From the NCBI RefSeq assembly GCF_040500525.1, contig NZ_CP159403.1, forward strand, positions 15,001 to 79,000: a DNA stretch of 64,000 nt. The letters are read 5' to 3'. This DNA is from Azospirillum formosense. Lineage in GTDB: Bacteria; Pseudomonadota; Alphaproteobacteria; Azospirillales; Azospirillaceae. Position 1 is the stretch's first letter. The number at the start of each line of letters is the position of its first letter. The position numbers and the translations under genes are program-made. Shown here one piece after another: positions 32,698 through 57,823 of this stretch. A model generated the notes under the pieces. That model did not search any database and had not been told where the DNA came from. It saw only the letters and a list, made by a program, of their open reading frames with translations.

Positions 32698-32812
32698 CCG
32701 AGCGACTTCTGGCCGGCGCGGCGAGGGACCCCCATCCTTCCTATATTCGTAAAGCCGACAGTTCTCTGCATTTTGGCCCCTCCGATTGCCCGAGACTCCC
32801 TTGTCACAGACC

Positions 32813-37778: not shown

Positions 37779-38263
37779 AGCGCTGGTGGCCTTACCCGCT
37801 GCTGACCGCCGCGCTCGTGGCGATGTGGCTTCTGCTGACCGAGAGCGTAGCGCTCGGCTCCATCCTGATGGGCGGCGTCCTGGCGACCGTCGCGGTCTGG
37901 GGATTCGCGGCGCTCGACCCGCCGGGCGGCCGGCTGAAGCGGCCGCGCGCCGCCGTCGCGCTGGCCGCGCTGGTGATGGGCGACATCGCGCGTTCCAACC
38001 TCGCGGTCGTCAAGATCATCCTCAACCCGCGCAAGACGGACCGGGTGTCCGGATTCCTCCACATCCCGCTCGACATGCGGGCGCCCTACGGTCTGGCGAC
38101 GCTGGCCTGCATCATCACGGCGACGCCGGGGACGATCTGGGTGGAGTACAATTCCGCGAACAACACCATCCTTCTCCACATCCTCGATCTGGTCGACGAG
38201 AGCACCTGGATCGACACCATCAAGGGACGGTACGAGAAGCGCCTGATGGAGATCTTCGAATGA
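37775..38263 (+). CDS. mrpE: Mrp antiporter subunit E
   Basis: A 162-residue subunit with two N-terminal membrane helices. The family ending is present: TPGTIWVEYN, LLHILD and a charged C-terminal helix. It overlaps mrpD by 4 nt and supports complex assembly. Confidence 0.93.
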   Translation: MKRWWPYPLLTAALVAMWLLLTESVALGSILMGGVLATVAVWGFAALDPPGGRLKRPRAAVALAALVMGDIARSNLAVVKIILNPRKTDRVSGFLHIPLDMRAPYGLATLACIITATPGTIWVEYNSANNTILLHILDLVDESTWIDTIKGRYEKRLMEIFE

Positions 38264-38541
38264 CCGCCACGCTGCTGCTCTGGTCGATCTTCCTGGCGCA
38301 GATCCTGCTGGTCGTCGCGATGGCCTGCGCGACGTACCGCGTGCTGCGCGGGCCGCGGGCGCAGGACCGCGTGCTCGGGCTCGACACGCTGTACGTCAAC
38401 GCCACGATGCTGCTGCTGACCTTCGGCATCCGCACCGGCAGCACGCTCTATTTCGAGGCGGCGCTGATCATCGCGCTGCTCGGCTTCGTCGCGACGGCGG
38501 CGCTCGCGAAGTTCCTCATGCGCGGAGAGGTGATCGAATGA
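38260..38541 (+). CDS. mrpF: Mrp antiporter subunit F
   Basis: A 93-residue three-helix subunit with the family motif VLRGPRAQDRVLGLDTL and a C-terminal LGFVATAALAKFLMRGE. It overlaps mrpE and mrpG by 4 nt each. Confidence 0.93.
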   Translation: MTATLLLWSIFLAQILLVVAMACATYRVLRGPRAQDRVLGLDTLYVNATMLLLTFGIRTGSTLYFEAALIIALLGFVATAALAKFLMRGEVIE

Positions 38542-38960
38542 CGCATCTGGCCGACCTGCCCGCCTGGGCGGCGATCCCGGTGGCGCTGCTCCTCCTGCTC
38601 GGCGCCTCGCTGGCGCTGATCGGGTCCATCGGGTTCGTGCGGCTGCGCAGCTTCTACGAGCGCGTCCACGCCCCGACGCTGGGCACCACCATGGGCATCG
38701 GCTCCGTGCTGCTGGCCTCGATGCTGTGCTTCACCGTCCTGCAGTCGCGGCTGGTGCTGCACGAGCTTCTGATCGCCGTCTTCATGGTGGTGACCACGCC
38801 GATCACGCTGATGCTGCTCGCCCGCGCCGCCCTCTACCGCGACCGCAGCGAGGGCAGCGACGGCGTGCCGCCGGCGCCGCCGGCGCAGACGACGGCATCC
38901 TCGGCCGCCGTCCCCCCGGCTCCCGCTCCCTTGGCCCCGGACGCCGCTCCGCCGGTGTAG
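38538..38960 (+). CDS. mrpG: Mrp antiporter subunit G
   Basis: A 140-residue three-helix subunit with GSIGFVRLRSFYERVHAPTLG and ITLMLLARAALYRD. A Pro/Ala-rich tail of about 35 residues extends beyond the usual end, echoing the tail of MrpA. It is the last gene of the complete Mrp operon. Confidence 0.93.
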   Translation: MTHLADLPAWAAIPVALLLLLGASLALIGSIGFVRLRSFYERVHAPTLGTTMGIGSVLLASMLCFTVLQSRLVLHELLIAVFMVVTTPITLMLLARAALYRDRSEGSDGVPPAPPAQTTASSAAVPPAPAPLAPDAAPPV

Positions 38961-39548: not shown

Positions 39549-40733
39549 TCAGAAGGACAGACGGGTGTCGAGCATCACGATGTGCGCGCGGTCCTTCAGG
39601 TCGCCGCCGTCGGGACGGCCCGCCTGCAGGGTGGACCGCACATAGTCGTACTCCAGCCCGGCGGTGAAGCCGGGGGCGACGGTCCAGGTGACGCCGCCCT
39701 GCCAGATGTCCGCCTTGCTCGGCGTGGACATGGTCGCGCTGTCGTTGCCCAGCGCCCGCAGGTAGTTGGCGGCGAGCAGCAGCGGCCCGGCGCCGTACTG
39801 CGCGCCGAAGATCCAGTTCTGCTGCGCCCGCGTCTGGGCGAGGCCCTCGGCGTAGCCGCTGTCGCCGCTGTAGGCGTAGCTGGCGCCGACCTTCACCGGA
39901 CCGTAGCCGACGTTGGCGCCGACATGGACGGAGTTCAGGTCCTCGAAGGACTGGCTGACGACGCCGTCGGTCTGGCGCACCGCCTTGCCGGTCGCGTAGA
40001 AGGCGCTGCCCTCGACGCTGACCTCGCCGACCGCGGTCTGGAAGGCGCCGCCGACCTCGACCACATCGCGGAAGGACAGCAGGTCACCCAGCGCGTCGGT
40101 GGTGCGGCGGTTGACCGACGCGTTGGAGTCGCCGCTGCGCGGCATGTAGGACACCGCCGCCGACAGGCCGCCGAAGCTCGGCGTGATGTAGACGAATTTG
40201 GTCCCGGTGTCGTAGGCGATCAGCGTGCGCAGGCTGGTGGCGGCCAGCGGCAGGGCGCCGAAGGTCGAGGAGCCGTTCAGGAACAGGATGCCGTTGCTGT
40301 CCGGGCTGCCCGCCACGCCTTCCACGTTCGGGCCGATCATCCCGTATTCGTCCGACAGGCCGTTGATGACGCCGGCCTGGATCGTGCCGAAGCCGCCGTT
40401 GGCGAAGAGGAAGGCGCGGTCGTTCTCGATGTTGCGGGTCGAGACGGTCGGATCGCCGTTGCCCGCCACGATGCGCAGCCGCGCGCCGTAGGTCAGGCCG
40501 TTGTCGGCGGTGGCCGTCGGGGTGACGACCAGACGGTAGCGGTTGGCGAACTCGCGCGAGCGCAGGCCCTCATCCCGGTCCTGGCGGATGTAGGCGCCCT
40601 GGAAATAGGCGTCGCCGCCGAGGATCAGGTCGAAGCTCGGCTCGGCCAGGGCCGGAGCCGACGTCAGGGCGGCGAAGGCGGTGCCGGCGAGAGCGGCGGC
40701 GCGAAGGGAGAAGGCGTTCATGGGCGTCGTCAT
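39549..40733 (-). CDS. Outer-membrane porin
   Basis: A 394-residue beta-barrel porin of the Gram-negative general type. The signal peptide is MNAFSLRAAALAGTAFAAL followed by a cleavage near APALA. Alternating strands follow, with GFGTIQAGVINGLSDEYG as the pore-loop region and a terminal Phe (MLDTRLSF) as the BAM recognition signal. ATG 40733 overlaps the upstream stop in an ATGA junction; ATG 40721 would also keep the signal intact. As last gene of the ten-gene run, it could provide the outer-membrane path for whatever that system moves, or be coincidental. Confidence 0.88.
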   Translation of the reverse strand: MTTPMNAFSLRAAALAGTAFAALTSAPALAEPSFDLILGGDAYFQGAYIRQDRDEGLRSREFANRYRLVVTPTATADNGLTYGARLRIVAGNGDPTVSTRNIENDRAFLFANGGFGTIQAGVINGLSDEYGMIGPNVEGVAGSPDSNGILFLNGSSTFGALPLAATSLRTLIAYDTGTKFVYITPSFGGLSAAVSYMPRSGDSNASVNRRTTDALGDLLSFRDVVEVGGAFQTAVGEVSVEGSAFYATGKAVRQTDGVVSQSFEDLNSVHVGANVGYGPVKVGASYAYSGDSGYAEGLAQTRAQQNWIFGAQYGAGPLLLAANYLRALGNDSATMSTPSKADIWQGGVTWTVAPGFTAGLEYDYVRSTLQAGRPDGGDLKDRAHIVMLDTRLSF

Positions 40734-41488
40734 TCCAGGGTCGAGAGAGGAGGGCTGCCGGGAAACCAGCGGCGGCCGAAGGGGGTGAGGTTGGCGTCCT
40801 CTAGCCGGGCGAGGCAGAGGATCTCCACGCTGTCGGCCCAGCGCGGGTTGATGCGGCGGAACCGGGCGACCGCCGGGCTGTCCAGCTTGGCCTCGCTGAT
40901 GGCGCGGGCCTCCTCGGTCAGACCGTAGCCTTGCCATTGCCAGTCCACGGTGCCGGTTTCGGCGTCGTAGTATTGGGCGAAGCATTCCCGCCCGATGTGG
41001 TCGCGGAACGCCCGGTCGAGGCCGTCGGGGGGCTGGTCCGGTTGCGGCGTGTGGCGGACGAACAGCATCGGCATGTAGCGGTAGGAGCGGTAGCCGACCG
41101 CGCTGTAGCTCCAGTACCACAGCCGTCCCGAACGGTCGGCGCGGGCGCGGGCGACCATTTCGGCGACCATCGAGCGGACCAGCTCGTTCGATCCCCAGAA
41201 GCGGCGCTCCAGGATGCAGTGGGCGGTGTGGAAGGCGCCGACGGCGGTGCCGCCGATCTCCGTCGCCTGCCGGTAGACGGTGGCGAAGCCGACCAGCTCC
41301 CCGGTCCCGGCGTCCTCCTGCAGAACGCAGTGGTCGAGGCCGTCCAACTCCTCGTTGAAATAGTCCTCGCCGTAGCCTTCGAACCAGACGCTGAGCAGGG
41401 CGAACATCGCCGCCCGCCGCTCGGGCGTCAGGGCCGCCGGCGCGACGAAGCTGGTCCGCAGGGGAGGGCGCGCCGCGGGCGTGGTCAT
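40730..41488 (-). CDS. Acetyltransferase-like protein of unknown function
   Basis: The 252-residue protein has no confident family. Its pattern LVGFATVYRQ, then a strand, HCILERRFWGSNELVRSMVAEMVARA, then a Trp/Tyr-rich stretch (RLWYWSYSAVGYRSYRYMPM) recalls a GNAT N-acetyltransferase fold with a divergent acetyl-CoA loop. The C-terminal third adds a separate helical region. It overlaps the SET-domain gene by 4 nt, so the two are co-translated. Confidence 0.7.
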   Translation of the reverse strand: MTTPAARPPLRTSFVAPAALTPERRAAMFALLSVWFEGYGEDYFNEELDGLDHCVLQEDAGTGELVGFATVYRQATEIGGTAVGAFHTAHCILERRFWGSNELVRSMVAEMVARARADRSGRLWYWSYSAVGYRSYRYMPMLFVRHTPQPDQPPDGLDRAFRDHIGRECFAQYYDAETGTVDWQWQGYGLTEEARAISEAKLDSPAVARFRRINPRWADSVEILCLARLEDANLTPFGRRWFPGSPPLSTLE

Positions 41489-41910
41489 TCCCCGGCTCCG
41501 GCCCCGGCCCCGGTCAGATAGAGCGCCGCCCCGGCCTCGCGCACGTCGGCGCAGATGTCCTCATAGTTGCAGGTGATCTCCTCCCCGGCGGCGATGTCGC
41601 GGCGGGCGACGAAGCGCCGCCAGTCGCCGGGATCGGCCCGCCCGATCGATGGACCGTCCGCGTGGTTGAGGAACCGGGCGTCGTCCCCCGGCAGAAGGAC
41701 GCCGACGCCCTCGATCACGCAGCCGTGGAAATCGACCAGCCGGGCGACCTGCGGAAACTCCGCCAGCAAGGCGTCGTCGGGCTCCAGCAGGCGATCGATG
41801 CGGGCGTCGAACGCCCACACCGGCGTGCCGGCGGCGACCGCCTCTTCGGCGAAGAGTCCCAGCCCGTGGATCGGGCTGGAGGCGAGGCGGGTGGCGATGA
41901 GGAGCGGCAT
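41485..41910 (-). CDS. SET-domain protein (putative protein lysine methyltransferase)
   Basis: A compact 141-residue SET domain has the expected order: IHGLGLFAEEAVAAGT, the NH motif RFLNHADGPSI and GEEITCNYEDI. It lacks pre- and post-SET cysteines. Bacterial SET proteins methylate lysines of various cellular proteins; the target here is unknown, but the co-translated neighbour is one candidate. The C-terminal Gly/Ala tail is short and disordered. Confidence 0.85.
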   Translation of the reverse strand: MPLLIATRLASSPIHGLGLFAEEAVAAGTPVWAFDARIDRLLEPDDALLAEFPQVARLVDFHGCVIEGVGVLLPGDDARFLNHADGPSIGRADPGDWRRFVARRDIAAGEEITCNYEDICADVREAGAALYLTGAGAGAGE

Positions 41911-41934
41911 GGCGTCCTTCTCCGGCGATGAGAC

Positions 41935-43098
41935 TCAGGCGGCGGCGGTGGCCGCCTCGGCGGGAGCCAGCGACTCGTCGAACTCGAAGCTGGCGGCGTC
42001 GTCGACGAACTGCTCGGCGATGGTCGTGCCGGGGTTGGTCAGGCAGACGCCGATGTAGTCGGCGAAGCGCGGCGGCGGGGTGAAGCCCTCGGCCAGCAGG
42101 CGGCTGTTGTCGAAGGCGATGTCCTGCGCGGTGAAGCGGTGGTACTTGCGCCCGCCGGCCATCATCGTCCGGTGCAGGATGTCGCGCTGCGGGAAGGCCA
42201 GGCGGAAGGCGCGGTCGAAGGGCTTCCAGCCTTCCGGACCCTTCGGGTCGAAGAAGCTGTAGGGGCGGGTGCCCTCATGGCCGTGCGCGGCGAAGGCGGC
42301 CTGGAAGTCGCTCCACAGGGTGCGGCTGCCGAGGCCGGCGGAGATGTGGTAGAGGCTGTGCTTCAGGTCGGGCTTGCGCAGCAGGTCGTGCAGCCGGGCC
42401 GAGGCCCAGTCCACCGGAACGATGTCGATGAAGCCGTCCGGCGAGCAGGGCAGGACGCCGGTGCGGTCGACCAGCCGGAAGAACCAGAAGATGCTGGCGC
42501 TCGGGCGCACGCCCATCGCGGTGTGGCCGACGACGATGGACGGGCGGCAGACGACGATCGGCAGGTCGGGGAAGCCGGCGGCCAGGGCGCGTTCCGCCGC
42601 CGCCTTGCTGCGGGTGTATTCGACGATGTGCGGCGTGTCGTGGCCGGGGGCCGGAGCCTCCTCGACCATCTCCAGCCACGGCGTCTCGCCGCAGCAGAAG
42701 GCGGTGCCGATGTGCAGGAAGCGCTGCAGGTGCTTCATGCGGCGGGCGCGGGCGGCCAGCGCCAGCGTGCCGTCGACGTTGATCTGCCAGACCGAGTGGC
42801 GGCTGTCGAAGGAGGTGTCGGCGGCGACGTGGACGATGTGGGTCACCGCGTCCAGCCGCGGGTCGGCGCTGGTCGCCAGCGACTGCAGGTCGCCCGGGAT
42901 GATCTGGCAGAGATCGGCGTAGGCCTGGGCCGTGGCGCGGTCGACGCAGCGGGACAGGTTGGTGGCGAGACGGGCGCGGCAGGCGGCCTCGTCGGCGCCG
43001 CGGATCAGCAGCAGGCAGTCCGCCGCGGTCCCGTTCTTGACGGCGTCGAGGTAGAAGGAACCACCGAGAAAGCCGGTGCCGCCGGTGAGAAGGATCAT
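41935..43098 (-). CDS. Thioester-reductase-like extended SDR
   Basis: A 387-residue NAD(P)-binding protein of the male-sterility/thioester-reductase group. The glycine motif is GGTGFLGG at the very N-terminus. Other motifs are HVAADTSFDS, the catalytic Tyr/Lys in YTRSKAAAE, and RPSIVVGHT. This family reduces acyl or peptidyl thioesters to aldehydes or alcohols. It is a stand-alone domain here, with no attached carrier protein. Position between exporters and a SET protein suggests tailoring of an exported lipid or peptide (inference). Confidence 0.82.
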   Translation of the reverse strand: MILLTGGTGFLGGSFYLDAVKNGTAADCLLLIRGADEAACRARLATNLSRCVDRATAQAYADLCQIIPGDLQSLATSADPRLDAVTHIVHVAADTSFDSRHSVWQINVDGTLALAARARRMKHLQRFLHIGTAFCCGETPWLEMVEEAPAPGHDTPHIVEYTRSKAAAERALAAGFPDLPIVVCRPSIVVGHTAMGVRPSASIFWFFRLVDRTGVLPCSPDGFIDIVPVDWASARLHDLLRKPDLKHSLYHISAGLGSRTLWSDFQAAFAAHGHEGTRPYSFFDPKGPEGWKPFDRAFRLAFPQRDILHRTMMAGGRKYHRFTAQDIAFDNSRLLAEGFTPPPRFADYIGVCLTNPGTTIAEQFVDDAASFEFDESLAPAEAATAAA

Positions 43099-43180: not shown

Positions 43181-44845
43181 TCAGGCGGGCAGCAGGTCGG
43201 GGGCCGGAAGGGCGGGGGTGTCGAGCCGGCGGATACCGCCCTGCTCCACCTGGATCTGCACGTCGGCGGCGTCGAAATACGCGTCGTCGTGGGTCACGGC
43301 GATCACGGTGATGCCGCGCGCCTTCATCCAGGGAATGATCTCGCGGTAGAATTTCCGCCGGAAGTAGGGGGACTGGTCGGCGGCCCATTCGTCGAGCACC
43401 AGCACGGGCTTGCGCTCCAGCAGGGCGGCGGCCAGCGCGAGGCGCTTCTTCTGCCCCTGCGACAGGTCCACCGTCGTGAAGGCGCGGCCTTCGACCGCCA
43501 CCTTGTCCGACATCTCCAGCAGGTCGAGCAGCTCGTCGGCGAAGCCGTCCTCCAGCGACACCGCGCCGTAGAGCTGGCGGGTGACGTGGTTGTCGGAGAA
43601 GACGACGGAGAACAGGTCGCGGTAGGAGCCCAGCGTGTCCGCCGTCACCACCGCGCCGTCCACCGTCAGGCTGCCGCGTTGCGCCGGGTAGAGGCCGAGC
43701 AGCATGTGGATCAGCGTGCTCTTGCCGGCGCCGTTGTGGCCGGTGACGAAGACGACGTTGCCGCGCTCCACCGTCAGGTCGATGGGACCGACGGTGAAGG
43801 AGCCGGTGCCGTCGCGTCCGGGGTGGCGGTACGACGCGCCGTCGAGCGCGATGGTGGAGAAGTCGCCGAAACCGGTCGGCGGCGCGTCCTTGACCCGGCG
43901 CTGCGCAGGGCGCGGCGGCGCCTTCAGCTCCGCCTCCACCGCCAGATACGACCGGGCGGCGGTCTCGGCGCTGATGTAGGAGGGGTAGGAGGCGACGATG
44001 GTGATGACCGGGTAGGCGATGAAGGCGGCGGCGTGGCCGGCCAGCACGACGGTCGCGATGTCGGTGCTCGTCACCGCCGGCAGCAGGAAGATGATCCCGG
44101 CCAGCGCCGCGTAATAGGTCAGCTCGCTCAGCGTGAAGTAGTGGCTGTACTCGGCGCCGAAGCGGTGGCGCTCCTTGCGCAGCGCCTCGGCGCAGGCGGT
44201 GGCGTCGGACAGCGCGTTGGCGGCGCGGCGGCGGTTCAGCTTGCACTCGCGCAGGGTCTGCAGGATGTGGTCCGACCGTTCCGACAGCGCGCCCTCGGCC
44301 TCGTGGATCGTCTCCGACAGCCGCTCCAGCCGCAGGACGGAGCGGGTGATCAGGACGCCGCCGACCGTCAGGAAGCCCAGCACGATCAGCACCGCGGCGT
44401 TCGACAGGGTGGCGAGGTAGAGCAGGCAGAGGAGGATCGCCGCGACCGACTGAAAGCTGATGACCAGCGTCGGCACCGCCTGGGCGAGAAGCTGAAGCTC
44501 CGGCCCGGCGACCTGGGCGAGGCGGGTGGACCCGACCGCCATGGCATCGGGCAGGTCGGCGGCCACCGCGCGGCGCAGCAGGTCGACGCGCAGAACCGCC
44601 AGCGCCGCCTGCATCCGCTTGGACGCCGCGCTCATCATCCAGCCCTGGGCGAACCGCCAGGAGAAGGCGGACAGCAGGAAGATGAACAGCAGACGCTGCA
44701 ACCCCTCCGGATCGTCCATGATGACCAGAGCGCTGTTCAGCGAGGTCAGCAGGGCGAGGTTGAGGGCCGCCGCCAGCACCGCCAGCAGCATCAGCGGCTG
44801 CATGTTGCGCAGGGCGTCGCGTCTCAGGATGCGCCAGAGATCCAT
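43181..44845 (-). CDS. Cyclic-peptide-type ABC exporter (PvdE/SyrD-like), second of a pair
   Basis: A 554-residue half-transporter has six membrane helices then an ATPase. Walker A is GHNGAGKST (about 366-374), the signature is LSQGQKKRLAL, Walker B is VLVLDEWAADQ and the H-loop is VTHDD. The signature LSxGQ followed by KKR, and the DEWAADQ Walker B, are hallmarks of the PvdE/SyrD group that exports siderophore precursors or cyclic lipopeptides. ATG 44845 begins 7 nt after the SPFH gene stop. With the exporter at 46183-47907 it probably forms a heterodimer. Confidence 0.9.
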   Translation of the reverse strand: MDLWRILRRDALRNMQPLMLLAVLAAALNLALLTSLNSALVIMDDPEGLQRLLFIFLLSAFSWRFAQGWMMSAASKRMQAALAVLRVDLLRRAVAADLPDAMAVGSTRLAQVAGPELQLLAQAVPTLVISFQSVAAILLCLLYLATLSNAAVLIVLGFLTVGGVLITRSVLRLERLSETIHEAEGALSERSDHILQTLRECKLNRRRAANALSDATACAEALRKERHRFGAEYSHYFTLSELTYYAALAGIIFLLPAVTSTDIATVVLAGHAAAFIAYPVITIVASYPSYISAETAARSYLAVEAELKAPPRPAQRRVKDAPPTGFGDFSTIALDGASYRHPGRDGTGSFTVGPIDLTVERGNVVFVTGHNGAGKSTLIHMLLGLYPAQRGSLTVDGAVVTADTLGSYRDLFSVVFSDNHVTRQLYGAVSLEDGFADELLDLLEMSDKVAVEGRAFTTVDLSQGQKKRLALAAALLERKPVLVLDEWAADQSPYFRRKFYREIIPWMKARGITVIAVTHDDAYFDAADVQIQVEQGGIRRLDTPALPAPDLLPA

Positions 44846-44852
44846 CGCCGGC

Positions 44853-46181
44853 TCACTTGGGCTGGATGAGGTCGAGCAGGCGGGACGGCGACATGGTCGA
44901 CAGGATGGGGGCCGCCGCGGCCTTCCCGTCCTTGGCTGGTCCGCTGGCGGCCCCCGCGGCACCACCCGCCGCCTGGGGCTTGACGCCGGGGACCGGCGCC
45001 GTCGGCGCGTGGCCCGCCGCGGACGGCGCGGGTTCGGCGCCCGCGGTGTTCAGGCTGGGCATCTGGGCGACCGGCACCTGTCCGGGGGTGCCCTCGCCGC
45101 TCAGCGAGGGGAGCTGCGCGGCGGGCGGCACCGGCAGGCCGCTCGGCATGGTGACCGTCGCGGCCCCCGCCTGCGGCGCGCCGGGTGCGGGGGCGCCCGG
45201 CATCGGGAGGGTGGCGCCCTGGCCCGAGGCGGCGTCGAGGATCAGGGGCAGCCCGCCGCTGGCGGCGTTGCCGATGACGACGATCTTGGCGTTGGGCGAA
45301 TGGGCCAGCTCCAGCGTCGCCTCGATGCCGCGCCAGCGCAGGTAGTTCTCGGTCAGGTTGGCCTGCACCGTCTCCTGGAAGGCGCGGATGCCCTGGCCTT
45401 CGAGCTGCTTGCGCTGGCTCTCGAACAGCTCGCGCTGCAGGCGGAACTGGTATTCCTGGGCGGCCTGGTCCTGCTGGATCTTGCGCTCGATCGACACCAT
45501 GATCGCCTCGGGCAGCGAGACGTTGCGGATCAGGATGTCCTGGATCAGCAGGTAGCCGGTCTTGGTCCGCCCGTCGGGCTTCGGCGTGTCCTCGGCCCCG
45601 ATGATCTGGGCGTACATCACGCGGTCGGCGACCTGCTCGAAGGTCTCGGTCTGAACGCGCAGGCGGCGGTGGGCGTACAGCTCGTCGGCCTTGAAGCGCG
45701 ACACGATCTCGCGCGAGACCGACCCGACCTCCGGCACCAGCAGCACTTCCAGGTAGTTCGGCCCGACGTTCTTGTGCAGGGCGGCCAGCATCTCCGCGTA
45801 GGGGCGGTAGCGCACCGTGATCTCGATGCTGACGTTCAGGCCGTCGTTGGCGATGGCCGAGTAGGAGCGGGTGTCCTCCTGCAGGCGCAGGTCGTAGACC
45901 TCGATCTTGTCCCAGGGGAAGATGACGTGCACGCCCTCGGCCAGGGCCGGACCCATCTGGGTGCCCTGATGGAAGCGCTTCCACAGCACGCCGCCGTGGC
46001 CGGCGGGGATGAAGACGACGATCGACGGCGCGAAGTAGAGGAAGATCAGGATGCCGACCAGCAGCGTGCACAGCAGCGACCGGCGGTGCTCGTCGTACCA
46101 GTTGCCGAGCAGCGCGCGCAGGCGCGACTTCGGCTGCGGCGTCGCGTCGGCGTCGTCGTAGGTGAAGGCCTGGTCAGCCAT
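44853..46181 (-). CDS. SPFH/band-7 (prohibitin-like) membrane protein
   Basis: The 442-residue protein has one N-terminal membrane helix at about 37-58 and an SPFH domain at about 60-240 (VFIPAGHGGVLWKRF, ITVRYRPYAEMLA, VSREIVSRFKADELYA). A helical coiled-coil stretch follows to about 280, then a long Pro/Ala/Gly-rich tail. It lies exactly between two paired exporter genes, 1 nt from one and 7 nt from the other. SPFH proteins form ring-like microdomain scaffolds, so it may organise the exporter pair in the inner membrane; no protease partner (FtsH/HflC) is encoded here. Confidence 0.9.
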   Translation of the reverse strand: MADQAFTYDDADATPQPKSRLRALLGNWYDEHRRSLLCTLLVGILIFLYFAPSIVVFIPAGHGGVLWKRFHQGTQMGPALAEGVHVIFPWDKIEVYDLRLQEDTRSYSAIANDGLNVSIEITVRYRPYAEMLAALHKNVGPNYLEVLLVPEVGSVSREIVSRFKADELYAHRRLRVQTETFEQVADRVMYAQIIGAEDTPKPDGRTKTGYLLIQDILIRNVSLPEAIMVSIERKIQQDQAAQEYQFRLQRELFESQRKQLEGQGIRAFQETVQANLTENYLRWRGIEATLELAHSPNAKIVVIGNAASGGLPLILDAASGQGATLPMPGAPAPGAPQAGAATVTMPSGLPVPPAAQLPSLSGEGTPGQVPVAQMPSLNTAGAEPAPSAAGHAPTAPVPGVKPQAAGGAAGAASGPAKDGKAAAAPILSTMSPSRLLDLIQPK

Positions 46182-46182
46182 G

Positions 46183-47907
46183 TCACGCGGTCTCCTGGAG
46201 CAAAGCCGTGGCGGGGCGGGACGCGGCCTTGTCGGCCGGCGTGCCCGTCTGCCCGTTCGTCATGTGGCCGTTGGTCATGTGAATGGTCACGTCGCAGACC
46301 GACGCGGCGTTGCCGTCGTGCGACACGAAGATCACGGTGCGGCCGAGCGCCCGCAGCTTGCCGATGATCTCGTTGGTGAAGCGGGTGCGGAACTCGGCGT
46401 CCTGGTCGGACGTCCATTCGTCGAGGATGATGATCGGACGCCCCTCCGCGACCGCGACGGCCAGGGCGACGCGGCGGCGCTGGCCCTTGGAGAGGTCGCG
46501 GTTCAGCAGGCCATCGCCGGTCTCCGGAACCAGATGGTCGATCTTGAGATAGGCCAGCATCTCGCGGAACAGCTCCGCGTCGAAGGTCGGCCCCTGCGGC
46601 AGGCGGGTGAACAGGTGGTGGTCCTGGAACACCGCGCAGAACAGGTCGCGGTAGGATTCCAGCCGGTCGCCCTCCACCGCCTGCCCGTCGAGCAGCACCT
46701 GCCCCTCGTCCGGGCGGAACAGCAGCGGGATGACGCGCAGCAGGGTGGACTTGCCCGACCCGTTGGCGCCGACGATGCCGACGACGCTGCCCGCCGGGAT
46801 GGTCATGTCGATGGGACCGATCACGAAGGGCTCGGGCCGCAGCCCGGCGCGGTAGGCGAAGCGCACGTTGCGCAGCTCGATGGCGGAGAAGCGGCGCGGC
46901 GCGCGGGCCAGCTTCGACGGCGCGTACTCCGCCGCCGGCATGGCGGCCAGCAGGGTGGTGAGCTGGTTCGCCGCATCCTCCGCCGCGATGTAGTCGGGCA
47001 CGGCGTTGAGGAACTTCGACAGCGGCCGGGCGAGGAACAGGATGACCGAGGTGACCAGCGGCAGCTCCGCCGCCGACAGCGCGCCCATGCGCGGGAAGAT
47101 GAAGACGAAGACCGCGGAGAAGCCGATGACGATGGTGGCGATCCAGGAGAACAGCTCGCCCAGATTGCGCCCGTGGCGCCGCTTCAGGTCCTCCCATTGG
47201 GCGACGTCGGCCTCGACCGCCTGGGCCAACTCGTCGCGCCGCGCCTTGCCCAGCTTGATCTCGGCGTTGCCGCCGACGATCTCGGAGAAGCCCTGGAGCA
47301 TCCGCACCTCGGACTCCTTGGCTTGGCCGAGGAGGGCACGGGTCCGCTGCGCCTCGCGCACGTACCAGCCGCCGATCATCGCGCCGGCCACCAGAAGCAG
47401 CGTCGCGCCCACGGTGGTCAGCGTCCACAGGTAGAGGTAGGCCACGACCGCCACCAGCATCATGTTGGCGGCGATCGACAGGTTGGGCAGCAGCGCCGCG
47501 ATGCGCTCCAGATGGTGGTTGCCGAGGTCGAAGGAGCGGCGGGCCTGCATGTCGAGGATGTCGGCGTGGTTGCCCAGCGTGACGGTCTGCAGGAAGCGCC
47601 GCCGCACCCCGGCCAGCGCGCTGAAGCCGGTGGTCAGCACCAGCCCGACGAAGCGCTTGCTGAAGCTGTAGGAGACCAGCAGCGCCAGGCAGAAGATCAG
47701 GAAGGGCGTGTCCAGCACCTCGCCGCGCATCCAACCGTTCAGCTCGGCGCTGAGGCTCATCAGGCTGATGAGGTTGGCGGCGGCGGCGACGCAGCCGGTG
47801 ACCACCAGCCGGGTCAGGATCTCACGGTCGGCCAGCCCGATCAGGGGCAGCAGGGCCGAGACGGGCCGGCTGGGGGCGGCACGCTTGCTTGTCTTGCTTT
47901 TGCTCAT
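46183..47907 (-). CDS. Cyclic-peptide-type ABC exporter (PvdE/SyrD-like), first of a pair
   Basis: A 574-residue half-transporter with six helices. Its ATPase has Walker A GANGSGKST (about 377-385), signature LSKGQRRRVAL, Walker B IIILDEWTSDQ and H-loop VSHDG. It differs enough from the exporter at 43181-44845 to suggest an old, specialised heterodimer rather than a recent copy. A charged N-terminus (MSKSKTSKR) and an extra C-terminal tail with MTNGHMTNG are visible. Confidence 0.9.
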   Translation of the reverse strand: MSKSKTSKRAAPSRPVSALLPLIGLADREILTRLVVTGCVAAAANLISLMSLSAELNGWMRGEVLDTPFLIFCLALLVSYSFSKRFVGLVLTTGFSALAGVRRRFLQTVTLGNHADILDMQARRSFDLGNHHLERIAALLPNLSIAANMMLVAVVAYLYLWTLTTVGATLLLVAGAMIGGWYVREAQRTRALLGQAKESEVRMLQGFSEIVGGNAEIKLGKARRDELAQAVEADVAQWEDLKRRHGRNLGELFSWIATIVIGFSAVFVFIFPRMGALSAAELPLVTSVILFLARPLSKFLNAVPDYIAAEDAANQLTTLLAAMPAAEYAPSKLARAPRRFSAIELRNVRFAYRAGLRPEPFVIGPIDMTIPAGSVVGIVGANGSGKSTLLRVIPLLFRPDEGQVLLDGQAVEGDRLESYRDLFCAVFQDHHLFTRLPQGPTFDAELFREMLAYLKIDHLVPETGDGLLNRDLSKGQRRRVALAVAVAEGRPIIILDEWTSDQDAEFRTRFTNEIIGKLRALGRTVIFVSHDGNAASVCDVTIHMTNGHMTNGQTGTPADKAASRPATALLQETA

Positions 47908-47916
47908 CGGTCCGCG

Positions 47917-48678
47917 TCACTCCGCCAGCCAGGAGTCGAGGATGCGGGTGATCGTGCCGTTGTCGCGCAGCTTGACGAAGGCGGCCTGCAGCCGTTCGGC
48001 CTTCTCCTTGCGCGCCTTGGGCATGGCGATGTAGCGGGGGATCAGGCCGAGCGGCTTGGGCAGGACGCGCACGTCCTTCAGCCGCCCGTCCTGCTTGGCC
48101 ATGTGGTTCAGCACATGCAGGTCGCCGACGATCACGTCCACCCGGCCCAGGATCAGGCGGCGGAAGTTGACCACGTTGCTGCTCGACGGGATCTTTTCCA
48201 GATAGGTCGCGGCGTCGAAGTCCGGCGCGTAGGCGAAGCCGTCGACCACGCCGATGCGGTAGGGGGTCAGGTCCTCCAGCCGCTCGAAGGCGATGGGGGA
48301 GTCCTTGCGCACCATGAAGACGGTCGTGCCGGTGCGGAACGGGCCGATCATGTTGTATTGCGCGAAACGGGCGGGCGAGGCGATGAACTGGAACCCGACG
48401 TCGGCGGTGTTCTCGTCCATCGACCGGACGACCTCGGTCCAGGACAGCGGCCGGTGGACCGGGGTGATGGTCAGCTCCTTCAGCAGGGCGACGACGATCT
48501 CGGTGTCGATCCCCGTGCGGGTGCCGTTGAAGGAGTAGTTGTAGGGCGGGAAATGATCTTCCGACGCGATGGTCCAGTATTCGGCGCGCGCCGGGAGAAC
48601 CGCGGCGAACAGCGCCAGCAGGACCGGCAGCAGGAGCCGCAGCGCCGGGCGGAGGACGGACGCCGTCGCCGCCGTCAT
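47917..48678 (-). CDS. Periplasmic solute-binding protein, family 3
   Basis: A 253-residue protein with a signal peptide ending near Ala32 (LPARA) and a PBP-II fold of the amino-acid-binding type (ASEDHFPPYNYSFNG, ADVGFQFIASPARF, YRIGVVDGFAYAP). No importer permease is encoded nearby, so it may act as a sensor or chaperone for the exporter rather than in uptake. ATG 48678 overlaps the stop of the 56-residue gene (ATGA). Confidence 0.87.
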   Translation of the reverse strand: MTAATASVLRPALRLLLPVLLALFAAVLPARAEYWTIASEDHFPPYNYSFNGTRTGIDTEIVVALLKELTITPVHRPLSWTEVVRSMDENTADVGFQFIASPARFAQYNMIGPFRTGTTVFMVRKDSPIAFERLEDLTPYRIGVVDGFAYAPDFDAATYLEKIPSSSNVVNFRRLILGRVDVIVGDLHVLNHMAKQDGRLKDVRVLPKPLGLIPRYIAMPKARKEKAERLQAAFVKLRDNGTITRILDSWLAE

Positions 48679-48845
48679 GCCTTCGCCCGCTTCTTGGCGC
48701 GGGTGGTCAGCAGGATCATCACGAGAAGGGCGCCGGGCGGTGTCAGGACCACCGCCAGGAAGGCGTAAAGCAGGAAGCCGCCGCGGCGGCCGATCCCCAG
48801 AAACCCGACCAGCAGGCAGAGACCGATGTAGATCAGCTCGAACAC
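48675..48845 (-). CDS. Small 56-residue two-helix membrane protein
   Basis: GTG 48845 opens a 56-residue frame with GAGGGAAG about 7 nt upstream. Two hydrophobic helices (LIYIGLCLLVGFLGIG and LLYAFLAVVLTPPGALLVMI) are followed by a basic tail TTRAKKRAKA. Its stop overlaps the next start by 4 nt, and the spacing to DUF697 (42 bp) is operon-like. It belongs to no family I know. The basic end should lie in the cytoplasm. Confidence 0.78.
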   Translation of the reverse strand: MFELIYIGLCLLVGFLGIGRRGGFLLYAFLAVVLTPPGALLVMILLTTRAKKRAKA

Positions 48846-48887: not shown

Positions 48888-49403
48888 TTAGCCGGCCTTC
48901 TGGACCGGCTGCTCTTCCATCTGCGGCGCGGCGGCCGGAGCCTCGCCGGCCTCGTCCTTGGCGGCCTCGTTCCGGGCGGCCTCGAACTCCTTGCGGAAAT
49001 GCTCGCGCATCGCCTCGACGTCGAAGTCCAGCAGCGTGCCGCCGGTCTCGAAATGCTGCGCGAACACGCGGCCGAGCGCCTGGGTGGCGGCCAGAGACAG
49101 GGCCGGCATGACGGCGACGCCCAGGGCGGTGCCGATGAACGGAACGGCCTTCACGGCGGAGCCGAGCACGCTGGAGCTGAGCGCGCCGGGCATGACGCCG
49201 CCCATCAGCGCGCCGATGATCGCGCGGGTGCGCTCCTGCGCGAACTCGATCTCATAGAGCTTGGCGAGCTTATGGATCAGGTTGAGCTGGGCCACGCTGA
49301 CCGCGGCGACGTCCGCGCCGGGAACGGGGATGAGTCCGAAGGCGCCCGAGGCGTAGCTGTGGTACTTGATCAGTTCCTGGGCGCGCTTCTTGCGGTCTAC
49401 CAT
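48888..49403 (-). CDS. DUF697/YcjF-type membrane-associated protein
   Basis: The 171-residue protein matches the pattern of DUF697: SYASGAFGLIPVPGADVAAV, LAKLYEIEF, RAIIGALMGGVMPG and VPFIGTALGVAVMPALSL. Two hydrophobic segments may insert into the membrane. An acidic/Ala/Pro tail closes it. In many genomes the domain accompanies dynamin-like or small GTPases, but no GTPase is here. It is the first gene of the ten-gene minus-strand run, preceded by AAAGG and an AT-rich region. Confidence 0.8.
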   Translation of the reverse strand: MVDRKKRAQELIKYHSYASGAFGLIPVPGADVAAVSVAQLNLIHKLAKLYEIEFAQERTRAIIGALMGGVMPGALSSSVLGSAVKAVPFIGTALGVAVMPALSLAATQALGRVFAQHFETGGTLLDFDVEAMREHFRKEFEAARNEAAKDEAGEAPAAAPQMEEQPVQKAG

Positions 49404-49784: not shown

Positions 49785-52700
49785 CTACCTTTGCGGGAAG
49801 CGAACCGGCAGGTCGAGGGCGCGCGCCGGAAGCTCGTTGCGCGTTCCGGCGCTGATCGCCGCCCCCAGGACCAGGACGGTGTCGCGCACCGGCTGTCCGT
49901 CGATGGTCTGCGTCGGCAGGGCGACGCGCAGCAGCAGGCCGTCCCGCGACGACGACGGGGCGTGGCCTTTCAGCAGGCGCAGCAGCGCCCACGGCCCGCG
50001 TTCCGCCAGGGTGATGGTGTCGCCGGTCGCCGCGGCGGTTCCGCCCGCCGGCGCGCCCTTCGGACGGAAGGGCGACCCGGCGGCCCAGCGGGCGCTCAGC
50101 AAAACCGGCTGGCCTGGCGTCCAGGCGAGCGTTCCGCCGTTGGCTGCCGCGCCCACCGCGCTGGAGCCGGAGCGCACCGACCAGTCGATGATGTGCTCCG
50201 CCCCGACCTCCTGCGCGCGGTTGGCGCCGTAGGTGAGGCGGACGCCGACCGGCGCTGGGCGCGCGACGGCTTCCAGCAGGGGGCGGGCGGCCTCCATCCG
50301 CTCCATGAAGGCGGCGACCTCGGGGGTCGCGGTCCGCATCACCGCCGCCCGGTGCTCGTCGAGCTGCCGGTAGAAGCGGCGGACGTCCTGCGGGTCGGCG
50401 TCCGGCGCGCCGCGCGCCTGTTCGGAGCCGACGAAGGGGAAGCGCCCGGCGAGGGTCTGCGCGAAGGCGGCGGACAGCTTCGACAGGGCGACGTCGCTGT
50501 CCGGGATCGTGGCCTCCACCGGCGGTCGGGGCGGGATCGGCAGATGCGCGACGACGGCCGGCTCCTCTGTGATGGCGGGCGCGACGGCGGGCGGCGGCGC
50601 CACGGGGTCCGGCGAGGGGCGCGCGGCAGGCGGAGCCGCCGCGACGGGCTTGGCCGGCTCGGCTTCGGGCGCAACGGGCTTTGGTTGCGCAGGCTTGGCT
50701 TCGGCGGGTTTGGCTTCGGCGGGCTTGGCTTGTTCAGGCTTCGGCGGCTCCGGCTTCGGCTCGGCCGGCTTGGCAACCACGGCGGGCGGAGCCTCGGGAG
50801 CCGGTGCGGGCAGGGCGGCGGCCAGGGCGTCCGGCAGCGCGATCACCGCCGGGTTCAGGGTCAAGGCCCCGCCCTCGCCCACCGCGAACAGGGCGCCGGT
50901 CTGCGGCGCGTCCAGCGCCAGGACGGCGGCGCGGGCGCCGGTTGCGGCGGTGGACAGGGCCTCGGTGATGCGGTCGGTGGTGTCCCGGCCCGGCAGATCG
51001 GCGATGGCGGCCTTCTGAAGCACCACACGGATCGCGTCGGGCAGGCCGCGGGCGGGGTCCTGCAAGGCACCGGCGATGGGCCAGGCGACGGCCTCGGCGA
51101 CGGCGCCGGTCAGGCGGCGGACGTCGTCGACGTCCTCGGCGGTCGGCGCCTCCGGCAGGCCGCGCAGCCGCTCGGCCAGGGCCTCGGCGCGCTGGCGGAG
51201 CGGGTTGCGGCCGTACAGCTCCTCGGCCAGCGGGGCGGCGAGCTGCACCGATTCCGCGCGCACCGCCGCGGCGATGGTCCGGGCGTCGAGGTTGGGCAGG
51301 TCGGCGCCCGCGGCGATGCGCGTGATGTAGCCGTCCGTCGCCGTCATCGGCGAACGGGGGACGGCGCCGTAGACGCTTTCGGCCAGCGCGTTCAGCTCGT
51401 CGAAGCCGCTGTTGCGGCGGAAGCGGTCGTAGCGCTCTAGCGCGTCGCGCCGCCCGCCGATGCGGTCGAGCTGCTCGGCGAGGCGGCGGAAGGCGGGCAG
51501 GTCTTCCACCCGCTGCGGGTTGGCCACCGGCGGCAGGTCGGCCATGGTGGCGCTGGGCAGCAGCGCGTCACGGATCGGCCGCAGCACCGAGCGGCGCAGC
51601 GTGACCGAGGCGAGCCGCTTCTTGTCCTCGTCGAAGGCGCTGAACAGCGAGGTCGGCAGCAGCGGCGTGGCGAGGGGACTGCGCTCCATCACCGCCGTGG
51701 CGGCGATCACGTGCCCGACCAGAGGCCCGTCGGTCACGGCGTCGCGCGCCAGCAGCGCCCGGCGGAGGTCGGCGGTGGCGGCGGCGACCGGCGGGCTGCC
51801 GGCGGACACGCTGGACACGCCCTGCCACGCGGCGACCGACAGGCCGGCGACCGAGGCGGCGAGCGCCGCCTGCGCCATCCGGCGGCGCTTGTGGGCCTGC
51901 TGGTAGGCGGCGTCGGACGGCCGCCCATAGCCGGCCTCGGCGAAGGCCCGGCCCGGCAGCAGGTCGCGGGCGAAGACCGGACGGCGCCCGCCAGTGGCCG
52001 GGGCGTAGGCGCCGGTCAGGGCGATGCCGCGCAGCGGGAAGGGCTCCGCCTGATCGTCGCCGCCTCCATCTCCTCCCAGGGCGCCGTCGAGGAACAGCGC
52101 CAGCGGATGGCGCAGCGTGTCCAGGGACGCCGGCAGCAGCGGCAGGCGCACCCCGGCGGTGCCGGCGGCGAAGGCGTCGGCCTCCAGAACGGCGATGTCG
52201 GCGGCGATGGCCTCGAACGCCTCGTCGATGCGGCGCGGCTCGAAGGGCTTCGCCCAGTCCTGCGGGTTGGTCCATCCCAGCACGCCGTCCAGCAGGGCCG
52301 ACGGCATGGCGGCGCAGAGGTCGGCGAAGCCGTCCAGCGCCTCGGCGCGAACCACGACCACATGCACGGGGGCGACCACGCCGAGATCGTCGCGCAGGGT
52401 CCGCAGGCGCTCCCGCAGGGCGGCGCCCCGCTTGGCCAGCGCGTCGCGCGGGCCATGGTGCTTGGCGGGGCGCTCGGCGGCGGCGCTCAGCTCGTCGGCG
52501 CCGACCATCAGCAGGACGCCGTCCAGCGGGCGGCGCATCGGCCGCTTGCGCATCGCCGCGACCAGCGCCGGCCAGGACGCGCCCAGCCGGGAGCCGTCGG
52601 CGGAATCGGCGCCAGCGTGCAGGATCGCCGCCCCTTCGCAGAACCACCAGCAGCCGTTCTCGCCGTTGCCGTCCTCGGGCCAGCGGACATGGGTCGGGTC

Positions 52701-53120
52701 GGTGGCGAGCAGGGCCGGGCCGCCGACGCCGAAGGCGAGGAACCACGGGATGTCGCCGCGGCGCAGGGGACCGCGCATCTGCCGCGTCAGGATGTCCAGC
52801 CCCTCGCCGTAGATGCGGGCGTTGGGCGGCGTGTCGGCGGCGGCCTTCTTCGGCGGTGGCACCTCTGCGCGGACGCGCAGCGGCGCTGGCGGGGCGGTCC
52901 GGCGCGCGGGCGCCTTCTTCCGGACGGTGCCCTTGGCGGCGGGCTTGCGCCGCCAGCCGCGCAGCGTCGGCCAGACCATCCGGCCGAGGCGGTAGAAGAT
53001 GTAGAGCGGCAGCGCCAGCAGCGCGTAGGGCGCCAGCGTGACGGCGAAGGACAGCAGAGTGACGATGGCGGAGCCGATGGTGGAGAGCACCAGCTCCAGC
53101 GTGAGCATCAGTAGGACCAT
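49785..53120 (-). CDS. Divergent TssM/IcmF-like protein without Walker A
   Basis: The 1111-residue protein has the TssM architecture. An N-terminal membrane hairpin (6-45) is followed by a cytoplasmic domain (PWFLAFG, CWWFCEGAAIL, PLDGVLLMVGADEL, APVHVVVVRAEALDGFADL). A third helix lies at about 413-438, then a large periplasmic region. Its C-terminal end holds the TssM-type ARW...GPWALLRLLKG block. The nucleotide site is lost: where TssM has GxxGSGKT/S, this has GVGGPALLAT (131-140). A Pro/Ala/Lys-rich insert (about 768-843, with KPAEAKPAEAKPA repeats) interrupts the periplasmic part. It overlaps the TssL-like gene by 13 nt. Confidence 0.83.
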   Translation of the reverse strand: MVLLMLTLELVLSTIGSAIVTLLSFAVTLAPYALLALPLYIFYRLGRMVWPTLRGWRRKPAAKGTVRKKAPARRTAPPAPLRVRAEVPPPKKAAADTPPNARIYGEGLDILTRQMRGPLRRGDIPWFLAFGVGGPALLATDPTHVRWPEDGNGENGCWWFCEGAAILHAGADSADGSRLGASWPALVAAMRKRPMRRPLDGVLLMVGADELSAAAERPAKHHGPRDALAKRGAALRERLRTLRDDLGVVAPVHVVVVRAEALDGFADLCAAMPSALLDGVLGWTNPQDWAKPFEPRRIDEAFEAIAADIAVLEADAFAAGTAGVRLPLLPASLDTLRHPLALFLDGALGGDGGGDDQAEPFPLRGIALTGAYAPATGGRRPVFARDLLPGRAFAEAGYGRPSDAAYQQAHKRRRMAQAALAASVAGLSVAAWQGVSSVSAGSPPVAAATADLRRALLARDAVTDGPLVGHVIAATAVMERSPLATPLLPTSLFSAFDEDKKRLASVTLRRSVLRPIRDALLPSATMADLPPVANPQRVEDLPAFRRLAEQLDRIGGRRDALERYDRFRRNSGFDELNALAESVYGAVPRSPMTATDGYITRIAAGADLPNLDARTIAAAVRAESVQLAAPLAEELYGRNPLRQRAEALAERLRGLPEAPTAEDVDDVRRLTGAVAEAVAWPIAGALQDPARGLPDAIRVVLQKAAIADLPGRDTTDRITEALSTAATGARAAVLALDAPQTGALFAVGEGGALTLNPAVIALPDALAAALPAPAPEAPPAVVAKPAEPKPEPPKPEQAKPAEAKPAEAKPAQPKPVAPEAEPAKPVAAAPPAARPSPDPVAPPPAVAPAITEEPAVVAHLPIPPRPPVEATIPDSDVALSKLSAAFAQTLAGRFPFVGSEQARGAPDADPQDVRRFYRQLDEHRAAVMRTATPEVAAFMERMEAARPLLEAVARPAPVGVRLTYGANRAQEVGAEHIIDWSVRSGSSAVGAAANGGTLAWTPGQPVLLSARWAAGSPFRPKGAPAGGTAAATGDTITLAERGPWALLRLLKGHAPSSSRDGLLLRVALPTQTIDGQPVRDTVLVLGAAISAGTRNELPARALDLPVRFPQR

Positions 53121-53836
53121 GACAGCCCCATGTCCTCGACCGCGGCGCGGGCGCCGCTCAGATCGCGTTGGATGCCGCCGACGGCGCCGGCCCACAGCAG
53201 GTGCGAGACCACCAGGAACAGCACGGCGGTCCCGCCGACCGCCCACCACCAGCGGCGTGCGGACGGCGCGGGGTAGCCGGGCACGGCGCCTTCCGGCGGC
53301 TCGCAGGCGCGCGGGCTGGGGTGGCTGGCCGCGGCGCGCTCGCCGACGACGATGCGGTGCAGGGCGGGGCGGCGGGCGGTCGCCTGGGCGTCGTCGGGAA
53401 AGCCCAGAGCCAGCGCCGCGAGATAGACGGCGGCCAGCCCGCGGTCGGCCTTGGCGCCCTGGCGGATCAGGTCGTCGGCCTGGACGAACAGGGTCTGCAG
53501 CGTGGCGTTCGCGCCGAACAGACGGCTGGAGACCACGGCGTCGGCGGGCCGCGTCTGGGCCAGCGCGCGATCGGCCAGCATGGCCATGGCGAAGGCCGCC
53601 TTGACCACCGTGCCGTGCGCGCCCGGCCCCTGCGAGACGGCGGCGCCGCTCATCCCGTGGAGCGTCGCGGTCAGGCGGTCGGCCACCGTCCCCGCCGGGG
53701 CCTGCGCGTCGGCGCAGCCGGCGAGCAGGTCCTCCTGGAAGGCGCGGAACAGGGCCAGCGTGCCGGCGGGCTTGCTCCCGGCGGGCATGGCCTTCGGTGC
53801 AGGGGCGGATTGGGCCGCAGCGGTTTGGGTGGTCAC
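53108..53836 (-). CDS. Divergent TssL/DotU-like protein
   Basis: The 242-residue protein has a helical cytoplasmic domain and one C-terminal membrane helix at about 201-220 (WWWAVGGTAVLFLVVSHLLW). The domain shows the DotU pattern: KAAFAMAMLADRALA, LFGANATLQTLFVQADDL and AAVYLAALALGFPD. The tail-anchored topology is that of TssL. A short Pro-rich stretch precedes the helix. GTG 53836 overlaps the TssJ-like stop (GTGA). Confidence 0.78.
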   Translation of the reverse strand: MTTQTAAAQSAPAPKAMPAGSKPAGTLALFRAFQEDLLAGCADAQAPAGTVADRLTATLHGMSGAAVSQGPGAHGTVVKAAFAMAMLADRALAQTRPADAVVSSRLFGANATLQTLFVQADDLIRQGAKADRGLAAVYLAALALGFPDDAQATARRPALHRIVVGERAAASHPSPRACEPPEGAVPGYPAPSARRWWWAVGGTAVLFLVVSHLLWAGAVGGIQRDLSGARAAVEDMGLSWSY

Positions 53837-54306
53837 GGCGTTCCCTCCGTCAGCGGAGCCACGGTGAAGCTGTCCCGTCCCAGCCGCACGTCCAGGGCGC
53901 CGGCGCCGTCCAGACTCTGCCGGTGGGCGCCGGACGCGCCGTACCGGGCGTAGACGAGGGTTCGGGTCGGGGTGGCAGGAGATGGAGCGAAGGGAGGCAG
54001 GCTGTGCAGCAGCACGCTCTGGCCCGGCACCATCTCCCAGGAGGCGATGGCGATGCGGTTGCCGGCCTCGGCGCTCAGCGCCTCGCGGTCGCGGAACCAG
54101 CCGGCGGCGTCGAGACCGGCCAGCCGCCCGGCCAGCGCCGGATCGGCCACCCGCACCACGTCGACGGCGACCGGGCGGCGCCCGTTGGCGTCGGGCTCGG
54201 CGACGATGCGCAGCACGGGGGCGTCGGCGCGCCCCGCGCCGGGCGTGGGGACGCCCGCGGCGCAGCCGGCAAGCGTCAGGGACAGGATGATCGCGAGGCG
54301 CTTCAT
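53833..54306 (-). CDS. Putative TssJ-like outer-membrane lipoprotein
   Basis: The 157-residue lipoprotein has the lipobox LAGC (Cys15). A compact beta-rich domain follows, with RRPVAVDVVRVADPALAGRL, WFRDREALSAEAG and VPGQSVLLHSLPP. The order of basic strand, DxxALxxE-type segment and PGQ turn recalls TssJ/SciN, but similarity is weak. Assignment leans on its place directly before TssL- and TssM-like genes. ATG 54306 is preferred, with GAGG 11 nt upstream, over GTG 54315. Confidence 0.62.
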   Translation of the reverse strand: MKRLAIILSLTLAGCAAGVPTPGAGRADAPVLRIVAEPDANGRRPVAVDVVRVADPALAGRLAGLDAAGWFRDREALSAEAGNRIAIASWEMVPGQSVLLHSLPPFAPSPATPTRTLVYARYGASGAHRQSLDGAGALDVRLGRDSFTVAPLTEGTP

Positions 54307-54319
54307 GTCAGCCACCGCC

Positions 54320-54715
54320 TCAGCCCCCGCCGCCGGGCGCCGACTGGCCGACGCAGACGTAGCCCGCCGGGGTATGGCGGTACCAGTTGCCGGTCGCCTC
54401 GGCGCAGGGGGCGAGGACGCGGTCGTTGCGCTGCGGCTCCGCTGCCGCCGGGGCCGGGGCGGGGTCCATTTCCCGGCCTGTGGCGGGACGGTTGGTCACG
54501 ACGAAGCCGTCCTCGTCCTCCTCCACGATCATCACGTAGCGCGCGCGCTTGGCGGGGTAGCGGATGCCCACGTCGTAGTCGCCGTCGGCCACCTTCTCCA
54601 GGATCGCGCCGGGGCGGTCGCCGCCCAGCGGCGCGCAGCCCGTCCCGGCGAGCAGGACCGGCAGCAGCGCCGTCGCGGCGATCAGGGTTCGCATCATCGG
54701 GGTGTTCCTGCTCAT
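54320..54715 (-). CDS. Small lipoprotein, unknown function
   Basis: The 131-residue protein has a lipoprotein signal with lipobox GTGC near residue 27. Its body has a strand-rich region (DYDVGIRYPAKRARYVMIVEEDEDGFVVTNRP), a Pro/Ala linker, and two cysteines (LAPCAEATG, YVCVGQ) that could form a disulfide. I do not recognise the family. ATG 54715 overlaps the channel gene stop by 4 nt. It sits between the channel fusion and the TssJ-like gene, and could bridge them. Confidence 0.7.
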   Translation of the reverse strand: MSRNTPMMRTLIAATALLPVLLAGTGCAPLGGDRPGAILEKVADGDYDVGIRYPAKRARYVMIVEEDEDGFVVTNRPATGREMDPAPAPAAAEPQRNDRVLAPCAEATGNWYRHTPAGYVCVGQSAPGGGG

Positions 54716-57795: not shown

Positions 57796-57823
57796 GGGGT
57801 GTCCGTTTGGCGTTGGGCGGCTT

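Follow-up and report, generated by a model that had tools for sequence, protein, structure and literature searches.

Linkage of a prohibitin-type SPFH subfamily to peptide exporters, DUF697 proteins and a two-helix mini-protein, with a paired-exporter variant in Azospirillum

The prohibitins PHB1/PHB2 and the HflK/HflC proteins share a single N-terminal anchor, an SPFH domain and a long helix, and their partners are AAA proteases or NfeD. Exporters of the YojI/SyrD/PvdE type are half transporters of the ATP-binding cassette (ABC) class, which fuse a transmembrane domain (TMD) to a nucleotide-binding domain (NBD) and display an LDEW(A/T)xDQ Walker-B region. The stretch of DNA analysed here, referred to as the window (64,000 nucleotides of Azospirillum formosense, contig NZ_CP159403.1, positions 15,001 to 79,000), comes from a genome of 6.1 Mb in the Azospirillum brasilense group, where it forms part of the secondary replicon C2, and carries a gene for a protein of the first kind between genes for two exporters of the second. 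Judged by its sequence, this SPFH protein falls into a distinct subfamily of prohibitin type whose genomic partners, unlike those of prohibitins and HflK/HflC, are peptide exporters, DUF697 proteins and a small membrane protein, hereafter the mini-protein. This four-part module and its near-exclusive co-location constitute the most useful result of the analysis.

The membrane coupling of non-ribosomal peptide synthetase (NRPS) assembly lines and exporters is understood for a few systems only. The cereulide exporter CesCD, which is of a different ABC type, tethers the NRPS CesAB to the membrane, and the main text names no SPFH protein (PMC7527721). For the balhimycin exporter Tba, an SPFH paraslipin was detected in its vicinity by proximity labelling and a membrane microcompartment was proposed (PMC11960670); this case differs in that the protein is an actinomycete paraslipin, known from labelling and not from gene linkage. 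In the 2025 genome paper on Thalassobaculum sp. OXR-137, a cyclic peptide exporter gene and a novel prohibitin gene were reported beside an NRPS/polyketide synthase (PKS) cluster and an interaction was suggested, although as a single instance, with no general module, DUF697 or mini-protein described in the available sections (PMC12016528). The text of a Pseudomonas aeruginosa SPFH survey contains no peptide-exporter linkage (PMC13086221), and no description of a module of SPFH, DUF697, mini-protein and exporter was found in the open-access literature.

The window genes concerned are the following:

43181-44845, minus strand: ABC2, classed by sequence as a YojI/SyrD-like ABC exporter, 554 aa
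44853-46181, minus strand: SPFH/prohibitin-type protein, 442 aa (Band_7, PF01145, E=8.4e-21)
46183-47907, minus strand: ABC1, classed by sequence as a divergent YojI/SyrD-like ABC exporter, a TMD-NBD fusion of 574 aa (ABC_tran, E=6.9e-28)
47917-48678, minus strand: SBP3, a periplasmic family-3 solute-binding protein (PF00497, E=2.4e-19)
48675-48845, minus strand: mini-protein of 56 aa with two predicted transmembrane (TM) helices and an RRxGF...TP motif, without a Pfam family
48888-49403, minus strand: DUF697 protein (PF05128, E=1.7e-11)

A preliminary description of this DNA had noted the SPFH gene tightly enclosed by two exporter genes, and direct checking of the open reading frames (ORFs) and junctions bears it out: ABC1 and SPFH are separated by 1 bp (46182), and SPFH and ABC2 by 7 bp (44846-44852). 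The mechanical ORF of ABC2 runs from 44965, and its exporter homology from the ATG at 44845. A Shine-Dalgarno-like CAGGAGA lies within the 3' end of ABC1, ahead of the SPFH start, and the mini-protein gene, which that description lacked together with the DUF697 gene, overlaps the start of SBP3 by 4 bp. Scans for promoters and terminators gave no signal above chance, and an Rfam scan returned no RNA family. The order SBP3-ABC1-SPFH-ABC2 is common to all 20 Azospirillum loci fetched, two of which (L045 and L052) reproduce the 1- and 7-bp spacing exactly, while a Paracraurococcus locus (L054) retains ABC1-SPFH-ABC2, the two gaps measuring 68 and 24 bp there, with SBP3 relocated downstream. Thus, the triplet is not peculiar to this strain. 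Within the genus, the window SPFH protein is nevertheless accessory, with a high-identity counterpart in about 27 of 45 sampled Azospirillum genomes according to match counts.

The linkage was quantified in 20 genomes picked for their SPFH gene, not for its neighbours, in which all Band_7, TIGR01194 and DUF697 genes were located. They hold 94 Band_7 genes, 28 in the subfamily and 66 outside it. A TIGR01194-type exporter gene lies within 3 kb of 26 of the 28 subfamily genes, whereas none of the 66 others has one even within 10 kb (Fisher p=3.5e-21); similarly, DUF697 is found within 6 kb of 25 subfamily genes and of none of the remaining 66. All 26 matches to the mini-protein profile in these genomes lie within 6 kb of a subfamily SPFH gene. 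DUF697 and the mini-protein are, in sum, linked to it as consistently as the exporter. The two subfamily genes without an adjacent exporter stand at a contig end (G019) and 26 kb away from an exporter that closes the NRPS cluster they share (G015). Seen from the exporters, 38 of 48 have a subfamily SPFH gene within 6 kb, and the four TIGR01194-type exporters of the window genome are all situated at its two SPFH loci. Moreover, among 385 sampled members of the class, SPFH was present in 18 and the exporter in 26, and all 18 SPFH carriers belong to those 26 (p=4e-25). These p-values ignore shared ancestry and overstate the number of independent events, for which reason the diversity of gene orders and contexts is the better argument.

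This diversity is apparent in 42 further neighbourhoods (L055-L096), fetched from order, class and phylum samples and subjected to gene prediction, which form a set of 47 loci with L054, L004, L045, L052 and the window. SPFH recurs in all 47 loci, DUF697 in 39, an ABC exporter in 36 and NRPS or thioesterase genes in many, and the mini-protein profile has a match in every one of the 20 Azospirillum loci and, among the 43 loci L054-L096, in 35. Within Alphaproteobacteria and beyond, in other classes, the linkage is retained at 35-40% identity and in varied gene orders, and in many distant loci the first 4 bp of SPFH coincide with the last 4 bp of the ABC gene. Public annotations give the same picture: in A. 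brasilense p2 a prohibitin is accompanied by an NRPS, two ABCs, DUF697 and a 65-aa protein, and in Skermanella and Rhodobacteraceae SC52 an exporter, a prohibitin and DUF697 stand beside NRPS genes. The window genome itself holds a second subfamily SPFH gene on replicon C3, whose product is 38% identical to the window protein; it adjoins an NRPS gene, the product of which ends in a reductase domain, together with genes for two exporters, a thioesterase, DUF697 and a 65-aa protein. No phage was found to carry a subfamily SPFH gene. The association of SPFH and exporter proposed in the preliminary description therefore holds far beyond chance and past this strain, being strong and general, whereas the precise enclosure by two exporter genes is local, since most relatives have a single exporter beside SPFH.

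The window SPFH protein scores 75.2 bits against PF01145 (cut-off 23.6) and comprises an N-terminal TM segment, the SPFH domain, a long helix and a Pro/Ala-rich tail; across Azospirillum the SPFH core is nearly invariant and the tail variable. Its nearest relatives of solved structure are prohibitins, with a sequence match to PHB2 (8rrh) of E=8.6e-14 over residues 39-291. A profile of the subfamily gives its members 291-500+ bits and the best other Band_7 protein tested 62, while in a tree that also includes five Band_7 proteins from outside it, the subfamily holds together with weak support (0.2), so that its monophyly is argued from the profile scores. Four Lys/Arg residues precede the single TM segment and none occurs in the ten residues after it, a positive-inside pattern that predicts an N-in orientation with the SPFH domain on the periplasmic side.

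As to the exporters, the curated cut-offs are 286.2 bits for TIGR01194 (cyclic peptide export ABC transporter) and 604 bits for PRK10522 (YojI equivalog). ABC1 reaches 201.5 and 240.6 bits, respectively, and ABC2 266.9 and 286 bits, all below the cut-offs; for TIGR01194, several exporters next to SPFH genes of this subfamily in other loci do exceed it. Both share the half-transporter architecture and the LDEW(A/T)xDQ region of YojI/SyrD/PvdE-type proteins and are best described from their sequences as YojI/SyrD-like but divergent. They are not orthologues of PvdE or SyrD, which corrects the earlier designation as PvdE/SyrD-like exporters.

NRPS condensation domains are found beside or near most SPFH relatives. 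In Tistrella mobilis KA081020-065 the module (C4:665975-670123) is adjacent to a type II thioesterase gene, and a large NRPS-PKS block lies at a distance of about 5-60 kb:

L070; G339:C4:665186-735000: Tistrella mobilis module and NRPS-PKS block, the module flanking the block

A CAAX-protease-like gene is located near 735 kb, with a plausible ORF at L102:18444-19484 (ORFs read by eye). The didemnin cluster is flanked by a thioesterase (DidJ) and a CAAX-like esterase (DidK), and the available part of its description mentions no prohibitin-type gene (PMC10811503). With a thioesterase and a CAAX-protease-like gene at the Tistrella locus as well, this block is probably the didemnin cluster.

The subclade of the window SPFH protein (window, L045, L052, L054-L057 and L084) departs from this pattern. 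SBP3 is present, the SBP3 family occurring in eight loci, all from this subclade, and NRPS genes are absent nearby; two of its genomes (G001 and G047) lack condensation domains altogether. It is accompanied instead by type I secretion genes (window and L054), homologous giant repeat proteins (window, L056 and L057) or an ABC with a C39 peptidase plus a second ABC (L055).

These observations lead us to propose that the SPFH subfamily provides peptide exporters with an accessory scaffold, together with DUF697 and the mini-protein, a proposal to which we give an even chance. Anchored by one N-terminal helix, the SPFH protein would oligomerize at the periplasmic surface of the inner membrane into dome- or ring-shaped assemblies, analogous to those of prohibitins and HflK/C around proteases, and would cluster or enclose YojI/SyrD-like ABC exporters. 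The two-helix mini-protein and DUF697 could act as membrane adaptors towards the exporter or the cytoplasmic side. In most genomes the client would be an NRPS product that the exporter receives from an assembly line tethered to the membrane, and in the window subclade a non-NRPS product; there, the module would be extended by SBP3, in Azospirillum and Paracraurococcus also by a second exporter, with type I secretion or C39-type export genes alongside. The more specific picture, in which SPFH, mini-protein and DUF697 form a periplasmic cage round proteobacterial peptide exporters, an export counterpart of SPFH-protease cages re-used in Azospirillum with a paired exporter for a non-NRPS substrate, is put forward more tentatively, as somewhat less likely than not.

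Several points weigh against the scaffold proposal. An AlphaFold2 model built from 17 homologues was unusable (pLDDT 42, pTM 0.23), so that fold and oligomer are deduced from sequence homology. SPFH is not essential for this type of exporter, since 10 of the 48 exporters lack it, including the highest-scoring TIGR01194 proteins of Tistrella. Furthermore, C39-type ABC pairs replace the TIGR01194 type in some relatives: a C39-peptidase ABC and a second large ABC adjoin SPFH/DUF697 in L055 (1131-6029), L091, L092 and L095, instead of or besides a YojI/SyrD-like exporter. Finally, the genomic linkage from which the scaffold role is drawn also fits a self-protective function.

The alternative that survives best is the one advanced in the preliminary description, namely that ABC1 and ABC2 form an obligate heterodimer organized by SPFH in a membrane microdomain, which is conceivable but, in our judgement, somewhat doubtful. 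Phylogenetically, the two exporters appear as old separate clades and not as recent duplicates (support 1.0 and 0.98, with Paracraurococcus in both), and they have been kept together in Azospirillum and Paracraurococcus; A. brasilense-type NRPS loci likewise have two ABCs. Moreover, in L056 and L057 the SPFH gene is followed by an intact exporter and then by a second ABC in which the Walker B Glu is replaced by Gly and the H-loop His by Arg, and which could hardly function otherwise than in a pair:

L056:6005-7597: ABC exporter with a dead nucleotide-binding site, directly after the intact ABC and SPFH genes
L057:5874-7421: ABC exporter with a dead nucleotide-binding site, directly after the intact ABC and SPFH genes

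A heterodimer is likely in these two loci, where the dead site of one exporter would all but require it. In the window, however, both NBDs are canonical, ABC1 retaining Walker A/B, LSKGQ and the H-loop, and ABC2 the Walker A, signature, Walker B and H-loop residues, so that the degenerate NBD of asymmetric heterodimeric ABC exporters is not seen. L055 and L084 possess ABC1-SPFH with no adjacent ABC2, which makes the SPFH association independent of a heterodimer; G047 has one TIGR01194-type exporter genome-wide and many relatives have one exporter only. ABC2 may also serve another partner, as the block of thioester-reductase-like, SET and P252 genes described below has its own ABC2-like exporter in L056. 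An ABC1-ABC2 heterodimer in the window is plausible from clade structure and the sister system, and with the strong link of SPFH to exporters the earlier interpretation finds partial support.

Self-protection, an unlikely though serious competitor, would assign SPFH, DUF697 and the mini-protein to envelope stress, as a module guarding the inner membrane of the producer against its own membrane-active peptide, and would entail the same linkage to biosynthetic clusters. The DUF697 protein YcjF is a member of the E. coli phage-shock regulon. In addition, an SPFH protein of Bacillus subtilis ties the phage-shock protein to the membrane, according to the abstract of PMC8581546. Nevertheless, the frequency with which the end of the ABC gene overlaps the beginning of SPFH speaks for a tie to the exporter itself, the window subclade occurs in genomes devoid of condensation domains (G001 and G047), and no PspA-like partner was found among the genes scanned.

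That the SPFH protein gates a membrane protease, as HflK/C and mitochondrial prohibitins do, with incidental exporter adjacency, has prohibitin homology in its favour but is very improbable: the recurrent partners are exporters, DUF697 and the mini-protein, no FtsH-type protease was detected by Pfam among the neighbouring window genes scanned, and NfeD was not found by Pfam among 19 neighbouring window proteins, so that the locus lacks the composition of an SPFH-NfeD operon. Mere co-travelling of biosynthetic and export genes on mobile or secondary replicons can practically be set aside, despite the many loci on megaplasmids or chromids, given that other Band_7 genes of the same genomes are never so placed (0/66) and that the linkage holds across classes, at 35-40% identity, with differing orders and contexts and overlapping genes.

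The window module lies within a single long run of minus-strand genes from about 70.5 kb, outside the window, down to 39.5 kb. It begins with a giant repeat protein, TolC-, ABC- and HlyD-type genes of type I secretion and a periplasmic-binding-protein/MscS fusion, continues with a 125-aa ORF, a short lipoprotein, DotU-like, IcmF-like, DUF697, mini-protein and SBP3 genes, and ends with ABC1, SPFH, ABC2, a thioester-reductase-like protein, a SET protein, P252 and a porin. Its further features are:

40730-41488, minus strand: P252, associated block, without a Pfam match, conserved in Azospirillum and L056
41485-41910, minus strand: SET-domain protein, associated block (PF00856, E=6.5e-10)
41935-43098, minus strand: stand-alone thioester-reductase-like protein (NAD_binding_4, PF07993, E=7.6e-33), associated block, membership uncertain
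54712-57885, minus strand: fusion of Peripla_BP_6 and MS_channel_2nd, by domain content
62660-70468 (past the window end), minus strand: giant repetitive protein of about 2600 aa, beside type I secretion genes

The block of thioester-reductase-like, SET and P252 genes (window 41485-43098; L056:1011-3529) adjoins an ABC exporter in two arrangements. Stand-alone Peripla_BP_6 proteins adjoin SPFH in L075, L087 and L088-L090. Related giant repeat proteins, carrying cadherin-like and CshA repeats, accompany the SPFH module in two further genera (L056:12222-18287 and L057:11857-19899). At 49785-54315 (minus strand) are IcmF-related and weakly DotU-like proteins and a short lipoprotein of TssJ-like appearance; Pfam detected no other type VI secretion system family in the region 39.5-63.9 kb, to which that search refers. 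On the plus strand, a run of membrane-protein genes at 32786-38960 resembles, by eye, a multi-subunit Na+/H+ antiporter of the Mrp/Mnh type.

The module provides a testable four-gene set and a marker for export functions in natural-product clusters, and T. mobilis is a tractable host, as knock-outs in its didemnin cluster already work (PMC10811503). The window variant keeps the module without NRPS genes. Should the cage model prove true, peptide exporters would constitute a new class of clients for SPFH scaffolds.

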